From Verrucomicrobiaceae bacterium (GTDB taxonomy: Bacteria; Verrucomicrobiota; Verrucomicrobiia; Verrucomicrobiales; Verrucomicrobiaceae): 35,560 nucleotides of DNA. The notes under the pieces were generated by a model. It had not been told where the DNA came from. It saw only the letters and a list, made by a program, of their open reading frames with translations, and searched no databases. The position numbers were made by a program, and so were the translations under genes. The stretch lies in assembly GCA_947477755.1 (NCBI GenBank), contig CANJVS010000003.1, positions 1 to 35,560 on the forward strand, in the 5' to 3' direction. Below, in pieces: positions 18,315-32,867 of this stretch; position 1 is the first letter of the stretch, and each line of letters opens with the position of its first letter.

Positions 18315-18446
18315 GCGCCCTGAAATACGCGCCTGCGGGCAGAAATCGCAACTGTCCATTTACAAACCAGTCATGAGGAATGTGATCCAGCGAGATGCAG
18401 CCACTGCTTGCAGGTGACGTTCTCAGCTTCTACCTACCCGGTCTCC

Positions 18447-24206
<5,760 letters not shown>

Positions 24207-28161: not shown

Positions 28162-30027
28162 TTAGAAACGAAATTTCACGCCTGCATAGGCACCGGTATC
28201 CAGCGCGGGAAACCCCGGGATCTCCGCATATTGTTCTCCGAGCAAGTTTTCAATTCGGGCAAAAATCTCCGCGTTCCGGCGCAGCCGCCAGGACGCGCTG
28301 AGGCGCACATTCAGGTAATCCTCGACATCCGTCTGTCCAAGTGCGGTGAAGTCCTCGCGATCGATGACATAATTGGCGCTCAGGCTGAAAGTCACATCCT
28401 GATGCGGTTGAACTGTAATGCCGCCCGAGAGCGAGTGACGCGGGCGCCTTACGAGCCTTGCCCGACTCGTATCATCCGTAGCGTCGAGGTAGGTGTAGTT
28501 CAGATTCAAACCGAACCCTTTGCAGGGATTCCAATCGAGCCCCGACTCCAGCCCCTGAGTGGTGGCCTTTCCCACCGCGACAGGGATGTAAAAAGGGGGG
28601 AGATATTGATAAGTATTCCGCAGGTCATTGCGGAAACCTGTCACATGGATTCTGAGCTTGTTGGCCAAAAACGGCTGTTCAATCCCAACCTCATACCCGC
28701 GGCTGCGCTCCGGGTTGAGCAGATTCGGATTGCCACCAAAAACGGGCGTCAAATCCTGAGGTGTCGGTGGAGTGAAAGCGGTGCCGTAGTTGGCATGCAG
28801 CACCGTCTGGATCAAAGGCACACGATAACTCAAGCCTGAGCGCCAGGTCACGGCCTCATTGAAATCTGAGTAGCGATCATAACGCAATCCGCCCAGTAAA
28901 TTCAATCCCGGCAGCACTTCTGCCTGCGACTGCAGAAACAGCGCCAAGTTCGTCTGCGACTGCGCGATGTCCTCCATGCCGGCACTGTCATTGAACCGCG
29001 TGATGAATTGATCCTGCAGCCATGTACCTGCCGTGATGGACCATTGATCCATGACCTGGACCACGCTTTGATATTCCAGGAAATCCGAGCGCGATGAAAT
29101 GCGATTGTTAGGCTGCCCCCCCCCGGGGAAACCCGTGGCCACCTGCCGGAACTGACTGTGTGAAAATGTCAGGGTCTGTTTCCAGCGCTCGTTCGTCTCC
29201 CATATCAGCCTTGGAGAAGCGCTCCAAAATTCAGTTAACAAATGATTATTCTGATCATTCACCGCAATTGTTCCAGGCGTACCGACATCCGCCGTGTAGT
29301 GGCGCAGATCCAGGTCAAATCGCAGGCTGTCGTCAATCTGATAGCCCATCTTGCCCGCCGCGCTGGTCTGCTGAAACTGGCTGTTGATTCGCTGTCCCTG
29401 AATATCCGTCCTGCTTGCTTCAAAGCCCCAGTCCAAGTCTCCGGCTGAACCCAGCGTGCTGATGCCTTCACGGAATGTTCCATAGCTTCCGGTCTCAAAG
29501 AACGTTGTCGTCTCAGGCTTCACTAAACCGCGTCCGCTTCGAGTGATGATATTGATCACGCCACCCATGGTACGTCCTCCATAAATGCTGGCCGCCGGAC
29601 CGCGCAGCACCTCGATGCGCTCCACATTGTCCAGAGTTGTGGTTTCGAGATTGAAGGATCCGGCAAGGTTTCCAGGCATCGGCCGCCCATCGATGAGCAG
29701 CGCCGTGTCCTTTGTCGTCGTTCCTCGAACCATCACGGTGGCGACGTTGCCGGTGACGCCGGGTGTGGCGATGGTCAACCCCGGCACAGCTCTCAGCGCG
29801 TCTGGCAGCAGGGGATACTTTTCCTGATCAATTTTTTTTCGATCGATGACCGTGATGCTTGATGCTGTTCGCCAGGCTTCAGTCTCGGTCTTTGTTGCCG
29901 TGATCACCGTCACCGGCAATTCCTTCACGGGTTCATTCTCTTCCGCTCCATGCAGCAGATGGCTGCTAAGGAGTGTGATCCCTGCGAATCTGAGTGCGGG
30001 GCATAGTCGTGTCTTTGGATATGTCAT
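28162..30027 (-). CDS. btuB: TonB-dependent outer membrane receptor, BtuB-like (probable cobalamin receptor)
   Basis: Plug domain TVITATKTETEAWRTASSITVIDRKKID...LRAVPGLTIATPG...VMVRGTTTKDTALLIDGRPM...ERIEVLRGPAASIYGGRTMGGVINIITRSG; beta-barrel ending in aromatic GVKFRF; start at 30027 gives a signal peptide. Cobalamin riboswitch immediately upstream. Confidence 0.88.
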   Translation of the reverse strand: MTYPKTRLCPALRFAGITLLSSHLLHGAEENEPVKELPVTVITATKTETEAWRTASSITVIDRKKIDQEKYPLLPDALRAVPGLTIATPGVTGNVATVMVRGTTTKDTALLIDGRPMPGNLAGSFNLETTTLDNVERIEVLRGPAASIYGGRTMGGVINIITRSGRGLVKPETTTFFETGSYGTFREGISTLGSAGDLDWGFEASRTDIQGQRINSQFQQTSAAGKMGYQIDDSLRFDLDLRHYTADVGTPGTIAVNDQNNHLLTEFWSASPRLIWETNERWKQTLTFSHSQFRQVATGFPGGGQPNNRISSRSDFLEYQSVVQVMDQWSITAGTWLQDQFITRFNDSAGMEDIAQSQTNLALFLQSQAEVLPGLNLLGGLRYDRYSDFNEAVTWRSGLSYRVPLIQTVLHANYGTAFTPPTPQDLTPVFGGNPNLLNPERSRGYEVGIEQPFLANKLRIHVTGFRNDLRNTYQYLPPFYIPVAVGKATTQGLESGLDWNPCKGFGLNLNYTYLDATDDTSRARLVRRPRHSLSGGITVQPHQDVTFSLSANYVIDREDFTALGQTDVEDYLNVRLSASWRLRRNAEIFARIENLLGEQYAEIPGFPALDTGAYAGVKFRF

Positions 30028-30089
30028 TGGGGCCGTTGCTTCATTACTTGCGATGAAGTGTGAACCCGCCGTTCTCCACATGAAGGGGC

Positions 30090-30290
30090 GGGCGTGAGCA
30101 TTCGGAGAGAGATATTCGGACTCCGGGTTTGTGTGTGGTTGCCCGCACGCCTCTCTCACTCGCCTTCACCCTTGGTTGCCCTCGGATTGACTTTGCCCGC
30201 GAATCATCACTGACCAGCGTGTTGTGAAATTGTGACCCGTTACCGCAGCGCGACTGTGGCCGATTTTCACGGCCTTCCCTGCATCTACGA
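30090..30290 (-). promoter_or_regulatory. Cobalamin (B12) riboswitch upstream of the TonB-dependent receptor; boundaries approximate
   Basis: Minus strand reads AGGGAAGGCCGTGAAAATCGGCCACAGTCGCGCTGCGGTAAC (matches the conserved GGGAA..GGUGaAAaUCc..CaG..CGC.CUG..AAC core) and ends with a B12-box-like AGTCCGAATATCTCTC (30107-30122), about 80 nt before the btuB ATG. Confidence 0.85.
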
Positions 30291-30522
30291 ATGACTGCCC
30301 GGATCATCATCATGACCCGGGACGAATAAAGAAAACGTTGCGCTGCAAGCGCGCCGCCGTGGTTGGCAATACCGGATCAGCCATGGTCATGCAAGCGGAT
30401 GTTGCCTTAGGGATCAGACAAGTTCCCGGGATCTCACGCATCTTTGATAGTGTTCCGGATTTTCATGGGGCAGGGGCACCTTTCCGCTTCATCTGCTTCC
30501 AACTTACGCTATCCTCAGTTGC

Positions 30523-31737
30523 ATGGACTCGGCCCGGCTCATCGAAAGCGCTCAACAGCATCTGCCCGCCGCACTGGAATGGCTCCGGCGCATGGTTCAG
30601 ATCAACAGCTACACCTCAAATGTTGCAGGCGTTAACGCGCTGGGCCAACTCACCGCCGAGTGTTTCGCTTCAATGGGTTTCACCGCCCAATTCATCCCGG
30701 CCACCGATCCTCAGCATGGCAGTCATCTTTTCCTCAGTCGCGGTCCATTGGACCTGCCGGCTGTCGTCCTTGTGACTCATCTGGATACCGTTTTTCCATC
30801 CGAAGAAGAGCTCCGAAACAATTTCAATTGGCAGCCTGAAGCCTCCCGAATCTATGGCCCTGGAACCGTCGATAACAAAGGAGGCACGGCACTCATTTGG
30901 CTCATGTTGCGTGTTCTGATGGATGTCCATCCTGCGCTTTTTGAATCTACCACTTGGCTCATTGCCGCCAATTCTGCTGAAGAGGTCATCGGCACCGATT
31001 TTGCTGAACGCACCTCCGAACTGTGTCACCACGCCGCGCGTGCCGTGCTCGTTTTCGAAGGCGGACCGCGAGAGGGCAAGGACTGGCACCTTGTCACTTC
31101 ACGGAAAGGCCGGGCCGAATACCGGATCACTTGCACCGGACGTGCCGCTCACGCCGGCAGCAGTCATGCTGAGGGTATCAATGCTATCGTCGAACTCGCC
31201 CGGTTGCTGCCAAAAGTTGCGGCACTCACATCTCCAGAGAGCGAACTGACCGTCAATATTGCCAACATTCAGGGTGGAACTGCTCTTAACCGCGTGCCTC
31301 ACGAGGCCACTGCTGAGTTGGAGATGCGTGCCTTTGATCCCGAGGCGCTTAGCCTGGCCGGAATGGTGCTGGAGAGCATGGGAGGAGTGGCTGAAGGCGG
31401 CGCACTGGTACAAATTGACTGTGTCGGTCGGACTCGTGCCTGGCCAGGTGGCGACGGCACCCAGGCCTTGTTTGAACTTTGGGCCAAACATGCCGACACG
31501 CTCGGCATTAAAGCGATTTCAATGAAACGTGGAGGGCTTAGCGATGCCAATTATCTTTGCCAACTAGGCCCGACACTTGATGCACTTGGTCCGGTGGGTG
31601 GCAATGCTCATTGCTCTGAGCGCACTTCAGACGGCACTAAAATTCCTGAATATGTCGAACAAGACAGCTTTGTGCCAAAGGCTGTATTGAACCTCCTCGC
31701 CTTGGAGGATTTTCTCGCCAGCCAGCCGAATCCATGA
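30523..31737 (+). CDS. M20-family metallopeptidase (glutamate carboxypeptidase-like)
   Basis: VLVTHLDTVFP, IYGPGTVDNKGGTALIW, IAANSAEEVIG, SRKGRAEYRITCTGRAAHAGSSHAEGINAIVELARLLP, GLSDANYLC, LGPVGGNAH. Confidence 0.92.
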   Translation: MDSARLIESAQQHLPAALEWLRRMVQINSYTSNVAGVNALGQLTAECFASMGFTAQFIPATDPQHGSHLFLSRGPLDLPAVVLVTHLDTVFPSEEELRNNFNWQPEASRIYGPGTVDNKGGTALIWLMLRVLMDVHPALFESTTWLIAANSAEEVIGTDFAERTSELCHHAARAVLVFEGGPREGKDWHLVTSRKGRAEYRITCTGRAAHAGSSHAEGINAIVELARLLPKVAALTSPESELTVNIANIQGGTALNRVPHEATAELEMRAFDPEALSLAGMVLESMGGVAEGGALVQIDCVGRTRAWPGGDGTQALFELWAKHADTLGIKAISMKRGGLSDANYLCQLGPTLDALGPVGGNAHCSERTSDGTKIPEYVEQDSFVPKAVLNLLALEDFLASQPNP

Positions 31738-31841: not shown

Positions 31842-32267
31842 TTATGGTAAATCAGTTCGATAAGCGATCCCCGGCTTGCGAACCACTGGATCAGGGCCGC
31901 CGCTCTCAGGATCGAGATACCATGGAGTTCTTGGAGCCTGCGGAGTAAACGTTTTTGGCGTTCTCCGTGGAGCGCTGAACTTCAAACGTGTAAACGCCTG
32001 CTCAAACTGAAGCCTTTCCCGTTCAGCTAAAGACTCGTCCATCATGGCAATGACGTCTTCAAGCGTCCATTGGTGATCAGAGATTCCAGCGGCCTGTGCT
32101 GGCGTCTTCTTGATTGTGCTATGCTTGCGGCAGAAATTGTAGTTCATGAATGACAGCGCCAGCATGTGGCAGTGATTTTCTGTCTTCTTGCTGAATGCGT
32201 TTGTGAGGCGTGTGAAACGGCGGTTTCCCATGCGAATCGTGAGGTTGGCGCGCTCAACGTAGCTAGT
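31842..32267 (-). pseudogene. IS1-family transposase, C-terminal fragment (N-terminus missing)
   Basis: Minus-strand frame reads STSYVERANLTIRMGNRRFTRLTNAFSKKTENHCHMLALSFMNYNFCRKHSTIKKTPAQAAGI, the C-terminal signature of IS1-type transposases. An in-frame TAA lies just upstream of this segment; the listed ORF starts at 32231 on an internal Met. Confidence 0.8.
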
Positions 32268-32867
32268 GCTCGTGCCATTTTAAAAGCGCGACAAATGCGG
32301 GTATTTGATGGCGAAGTTTTTACCCGCTACGCAGAAGCGGCAGAATCTTTTGTTATCTCAGTGGCAAAAGTTGGGATTATTGCCCTAATTGATGAGGCCA
32401 CAGGACATCAAGACTCACGACCAAGAGACGATCTCCAAAAACACCTCGATAAGTATCTCAAAAAGGAATTTGCCGCATGGTCTAAGCGATTCCCGGACGA
32501 TTTTTATGAAGAGATGTATCGCCTCAAAGGCTGGCAGTGGCAAGGTATGAAGGTCAATCGCTTCCAAGTCGTAGCATTTTACACAAACGATCTGATTTAT
32601 TCACGACTGACACCAGGGATGCTTGAAGAGCTTCAACAGATAAATCCAGCAAATGAGTTTGGGTTACGCAATCACAAACACCATCAGCATCTAACGCATG
32701 ATATTGGACATCCCGCTTTGCAGCAGCATTTATATGCCATTATCGGCATGATGAGAGCATCGACCAGTTGGGGGCCTTTTGTGCGGATGATCGACCGCGC
32801 TTTCCCAAAAATTGGCTCTACTTATGCGCTTGCCCTTGATGATGATGAACTAAATCCACCTGATTAA
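32166..32867 (+). pseudogene. P63C-domain protein, 5'-truncated (homology begins at about 32265-32280)
   Basis: ILKARQ...AESFVISVAKVGIIALIDEATGHQDSRPRDDLQKHLDKYLKKEFAAWSKRFPDDFYEEMYRLKGW...HKHHQHLTHDIGHPALQQHLYAIIGMMRASTSWGPFVRMIDRAFPK is P63C-like. The first ~35 codons of the listed ORF are antisense to transposase sequence, so the native N-terminus is absent. Confidence 0.75.

Follow-up and report, generated by a model that had tools for sequence, protein, structure and literature searches.

A divergent cobalamin riboswitch ahead of a BtuB-like receptor gene in Verrucomicrobiaceae, and its exchangeable cargo

The locus and its aptamer

The window, by which we mean the whole stretch of 35,560 nucleotides of Verrucomicrobiaceae DNA that was analysed, carries on its minus strand a gene for a TonB-dependent receptor with plug and barrel domains (PF07715 and PF00593), preceded by an RNA element and, beyond it, by a divergent peptidase gene. 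The features of this region are as follows.

28162-30027, minus strand: BtuB-like TonB-dependent receptor, 621 aa (PF07715, PF00593)
30024-30044, minus strand: six-codon uORF MKQRPQ, with its AUG in the 3' strand of P13 and its UGA overlapping the receptor ATG (AUGA)
30058-30039, minus strand: P13-like hairpin CUUCAU-CGCAAGUA-AUGAAG, from the sequence, ending 11 bases before ATG 30027
30044-30313, minus strand: 89-aa open reading frame, spurious, overlapping the RNA and with no Pfam match
30293-30099, minus strand: cobalamin riboswitch aptamer (comparative boundaries, RF00174, covariation in 14 and 52 copies)
30293-30288/30104-30099, minus strand: P1, CAUUCG/CGAAUG
30280-30278/30112-30110, minus strand: P3
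30274-30270/30262-30258, minus strand: P4
30253-30249, minus strand: L5 (of P5), UCGCG
30245-30243/30119-30117, minus strand: P6a
30239-30235/30128-30124, minus strand: P6b
between the two P6b strands, minus strand: accessory arm P7-P11
30298-30321, minus strand: optional hairpin CCCGG...CCGGG between a T-tract and P1, read by Rfam as P2
30352-30327, minus strand: terminator-like GC hairpin (30352-30340) with TTTTCTTTA (30335-30327), upstream of the aptamer
30523-31737, plus strand: divergent M20-family peptidase (PF01546, PF07687), a syntenic marker of the locus

An earlier note on this DNA had proposed a cobalamin riboswitch controlling the receptor and had suggested an Rfam scan as a check. 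When the window was searched against all 4227 Rfam families, RF00174 was the sole match in its whole length, at 30334-30094 of the minus strand with 34.1 bits (E = 3.3e-5), which exceeds the gathering score of 31.5 bits. The two motifs quoted in that note, the core GGGAAGGCCGTGAAAATCGGCCACAGTCGCGCTGCGGTAAC and the B12-box-like AGTCCGAATATCTCTC, were located at 30279-30239 and 30122-30107 of the same strand. Its end of the element at 30290 lies near the comparative end at 30293, while the Rfam match extends some 40 bases farther. With a curated covariance model and heavy covariation among relatives behind it, the observation of a cobalamin riboswitch ahead of a BtuB-like receptor is confirmed. 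This is the only RF00174 match in the window's genome, an assembly in 552 contigs; since it is 53% complete, absences were judged in relatives.

The placement of P1 and P2 by Rfam (to 30334) was rejected, as the near pairing CAUUCG/CGAAUG covaries and the hairpin read as P2 is missing in several relatives with an intact aptamer, L052 and L055 among them; the model misplaces P1 of the window because a second ATTCG sits upstream of this optional hairpin. RNAalifold alone mispaired J6/3 and the P3-P5 region, and the structure was therefore set by hand and then tested. With RF00174 the element has in common the P3-P6 junction core, the P4 hairpin, P5, the accessory arm (GNRA-type closing loops are common on its P8, P10 and P11), a P6 with a UAAC/GGAGU-type internal loop and the location ahead of a B12 receptor. 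The subtype of this genus differs in having no P2 hairpin within P1, which directly adjoins the AUGC-P3 junction, in an L5 of the form U-N-GCG, where the published cobalamin riboswitch consensus is UCCCG (PMC10653944), in a J6/3 of AAYA against GAGA in the Rfam consensus, and in the B12 box AGUCCGAAYAUCU. The missing P2 bears on the subtype, and the core and the score keep the RNA within the RF00174 family.

The 89-aa frame had been explained as a riboswitch overlap, and this explanation held: it is not kept in relatives, where stops fall from 34 codons to more than 100, and it is a chance reading frame over the RNA and not a gene. The GC hairpin followed by TTTTCTTT is kept upstream of the aptamer in most copies of the genus, and in the window this terminator-like element is present though the neighbouring gene is divergent. 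A leader reading frame from an AUGGCG within it was rejected, its frame not being conserved as judged by eye. Farther upstream lies a possible promoter, TTGCAT-17-TATTGC (30394-30366), which fails a consensus scan.

Covariation and spread of the element

In 14 close copies 92.4% of the cells were paired and 23 pairs showed two-sided changes, cells with such changes numbering 73 against 26 in shuffles. In a larger set of 52 copies, which takes in other families and the class, pairing held in 94.5% of the cells, two-sided changes were seen in 45 of the 55 modelled pairs, and 538 cells carried them against 150 in shuffles; slid controls of this set gave 19-27 pairs with two-sided changes and 33-46% paired. 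It may be noted that the 52-copy alignment was made by fitting to the model and is thus biased towards it, whereas the 14-copy alignment was not so fitted. The paired core of P1, P3, P4 and P6 is backed by compensatory changes, while P5 is invariant and hence uninformative alone.

From the 14 copies, the window included, we built a covariance model, R1; the window's R1 score of 229 bits is that of a training copy and is not independent, whereas its RF00174 score is. R1 found exactly one copy per genome in 47 of the 48 genus genomes, and it had matches in 122 of 289 genomes sampled across the phylum. RF00174 found the element in 14 of the 48 genus genomes, 12 of them above the cut-off, under the strict filters of a 96-genome count, and with ordinary settings 7 of 20 tested loci reached the cut-off. 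The named genomes with an exact match to the RNA core were all Verrucomicrobiota, mostly Verrucomicrobiaceae or Prosthecobacter plus Brevifollis gellanilyticus, and no exact core match was found in viral contigs. Combined together, these comparisons point to a Verrucomicrobiota-specific cobalamin riboswitch subtype, most genus copies of which score under the Rfam cut-off or close to it. The Rfam cobalamin model misses most copies of it, and R1, as the better model, marks putative B12-controlled genes across Verrucomicrobiota. As a finding this is of an ordinary kind, a variant of one lineage in which the cargo has been swapped. Its novelty lies in the subtype peculiar to the lineage, in how poorly Rfam covers that subtype, and in the cargo being exchangeable.

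Receptor, expression platform and proposed control

The list of open reading frames starts the receptor at GTG 30159. This codon falls within the aptamer, and the signal peptide starts only at ATG 30027; the GTG was therefore rejected, and ATG 30027 is most likely the true start. The best NCBIfam family was that of the B12 receptor, TIGR01779, with 208.6 bits against a cut-off of 599.7, and we therefore call the protein BtuB-like and not BtuB. Its closest PDB chains are those of E. coli BtuB. Orthologs occur in 29 of 35 genus genomes, with a riboswitch leader ahead of all 28 whose upstream DNA could be read. The earlier note had also proposed a check for B12-dependent genes and for de novo B12 synthesis. 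The B12-dependent MetH domain was present in 28 of the 28 genomes tested, CobS was found in none of 18 genus genomes, and a full-strength MetE N-terminal domain occurred in two of the 18, the other 16 being without full MetE. With MetH present, CobS absent and MetE mostly missing, import of B12 therefore looks essential, and the genus appears to depend on imported cobalamin.

Between the aptamer and this receptor, a hairpin UUCAU-CG...-AUGAA closes the leader in nearly all genus copies. In the window CGC at the start of its loop L13 (30052-30050) is complementary to GCG at the end of L5 (30251-30249), giving three pairs, and the same ends face each other in most close relatives, with CGA facing UCG in L125. 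The main clade has an L5 of UGGCG opposite CGAACCA, which can give five pairs around an AA bulge. The complementarity holds in most copies and partly covaries (UGUCG/CGAACA, UUGCG/CGCACA), with a weaker fit in others, and L5 and L13 would form a kissing loop as in known cobalamin riboswitches. In the main clade the AUG in P13 stands at a constant 17 bases ahead of the gene AUG while the intervening bases vary, and the window keeps this distance. A uORF of the MKQRPQ type is found also in L074 and is elsewhere not kept in that form; its AUGA overlap with the receptor start might allow translational coupling. The window and the main clade have P13 only, whereas many relatives of the window's clade, with either cargo, have a longer platform after it. 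By eye, in L066, L117, L033 and others, a G(A/G)GUG(A/G)GA stretch 3' of P13 is complementary to a CUCUCGC/UCUUGCC farther on, and that stretch can also pair with AGAGAC/GCAAGA before the start, so that alternative hairpins are possible there.

The best explanation is very probably that the BtuB-like receptor is controlled in cis by a cobalamin riboswitch of a subtype specific to Verrucomicrobiota, probably at the level of translation. Plentiful intracellular cobalamin, most likely adenosylcobalamin as the length of the P6 accessory arm suggests, would bind the P3-P6 junction; in the bound state L5 would pair with L13 of the start-proximal hairpin, and the hairpin so stabilised would hinder ribosome loading and lower receptor synthesis. 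Under cobalamin scarcity the hairpin would open and the receptor would be made. We take the control to be probably translational, since the minus strand showed no terminator-like site between the aptamer and the receptor start. Against the model as a whole stand the shortness of the L5-L13 pairing and its imperfect covariation, the lack of a clear Shine-Dalgarno sequence to mask ahead of the receptor, and the receptor's score below the TIGR01779 cut-off. For E. coli btuB, kissing-loop control of translation is given as established in work cited in PMC10653944, and the two systems share a leader in front of the gene for a B12 receptor of the outer membrane and are alike in the L5-L13 translational control proposed here. 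They differ in that the aptamer of the window is divergent, that no Shine-Dalgarno sequence is obvious and that BtuF-type proteins were found in only one of 18 genus genomes (G000-G017), despite MetH.

Transcription attenuation instead of translational control is unlikely in our view: the conserved terminator-like hairpin and TTTTCTTT close to the aptamer would suit it, but this hairpin lies upstream of the aptamer and not between aptamer and gene, and none lies downstream on the minus strand. Nor do we see much room for a riboswitch that has decayed and lost its function, a reading that would account for a score barely above threshold (34.1 against 31.5 bits) and for the many genus copies that RF00174 misses. 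The near-invariant core and the strong covariation argue for continued selection, and the low score comes from the lineage-specific layout, as R1 recognises the element in 47 of 48 genomes; decay is therefore extremely improbable.

The RNA could also be a true cobalamin riboswitch that only reports the B12 state, while the receptor mainly takes up an iron chelate, heme or a cobamide analogue. The missed TIGR01779 cut-off speaks for this, as does the score of the colicin I receptor, which comes close to that of BtuB. We nevertheless hold this to be quite improbable, since the riboswitch stands ahead of every ortholog tested, the genomes need imported B12, and in G067, which belongs to another family, a receptor with 29% identity directly follows a cobalamin riboswitch and has a BtuF-type gene on its other side. 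Cobalamin as the predicted substrate, which the earlier note had assigned along with the riboswitch, is thus supported by the riboswitch itself, the likeness to BtuB, the B12-dependent genomes without CobS and the copy of the RNA ahead of a DUF4465 gene. An otherwise generic receptor thereby gains a likely substrate.

Other cargos of the same RNA

The receptor is missing in six of the 35 genus genomes (G003, G005, G010, G019, G023 and G033), and these six, alone among the 35, have a long ortholog of a secreted protein some 890 aa in length, the gene for which lies directly 3' of the riboswitch in the receptor-less genomes read. The N-terminal third of this protein is predicted to be a beta-propeller (pLDDT 82) and is matched by Foldseek to propellers; Calx-beta and Ig-like domains follow. 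We tried the propeller as BtuG and rejected this, the Foldseek matches being generic (Drp35, SMP-30, designed Pizza6) with no BtuG among the 50 matches listed, and the sequence profile did not find BtuG. As neither fold nor profile found it, we claim only a propeller. Where the fetched DNA reaches (L066, L083, L091, L097 and L107), the product of the next gene is about 710 aa long, and in L066 the two-gene set reads as follows.

L066, 880-3546: propeller/Calx-beta protein
L066, 3551-5686: BtuH-domain-like protein, 711 aa

The C-terminal domain of the second protein groups with domains 3' of riboswitches in other families, and a profile of these C-terminal domains matches 8blw_B (residues 390-498, E 3.2e-5), the partner chain of a Bacteroides BtuB1 entry, which we take to be BtuG1. 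In L147 (G061) a single protein encoded downstream of a riboswitch combines the propeller with this domain, just as BtuG1 joins a propeller to a BtuH-like domain. A weak single-sequence match to 7biz, which is BtuH2 (PMC8941943), agrees with the BtuH-like assignment; the AlphaFold model of the domain was poor (pLDDT 41). In L105 the same RNA precedes a DUF4465 gene, of a family that binds B12 experimentally (PMC13398666, PMC12751083). The cargo of these relatives resembles the BtuG, BtuH and BtuJ of Bacteroides, which stand under cobalamin riboswitches, in being a secreted beta-propeller with a BtuH-like domain, or a DUF4465 (BtuJ-type) protein. It differs in coming from another phylum, in a propeller not recognisably BtuG by sequence, in the extra Calx-beta and Ig-like domains and in having no adjoining BtuB in the DNA read. 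We infer that the second cargo captures B12.

The M20 peptidase adjoins the riboswitch also in L074, L085/L110 and L091. At this locus L085/L110 and the Brevifollis copy L091 have the propeller cargo, while the window and L074 have the receptor, and therefore either one cargo took the place of the other at a single site or there was recombination between two riboswitch loci. In L065, L068, L095 and L096 the riboswitch is followed by the gene for a secreted protein of some 310 aa that has no Pfam match and then by a pseudopilin-like gene (N_methyl in L065). Taken as a whole, the chances seem evenly balanced that each genome has one riboswitch with mutually exclusive cargos, that the second cargo is a new BtuG/BtuH-related system of B12 capture, and that the further riboswitch-linked secreted families without Pfam names are new B12-binding proteins. 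The cargos, including those unnamed families, are candidate B12 capturers in bacteria that need B12 and apparently do not make it.

A pseudopilin-like gene also lies 3' of the riboswitch in L013; a pilin-like gene under B12 control was unexpected. Short secreted proteins related to the 310-aa protein follow cobalamin riboswitches in other families (L018, L019, L015 and L010), with a PEP-CTERM signal in the L018 protein and similar C-termini in the other three. Elsewhere in the window, 18408-24206 of the plus strand encodes a UvrA-like protein of 1932 aa in which UvrA/ABC-type ATPase matches occur in more than one set, a pattern known from tandem UvrA fusions, and at 31842-32867 a 129-aa open reading frame with, by eye, the look of a transposase remnant lies beside a P63C-domain open reading frame (32166-32867).
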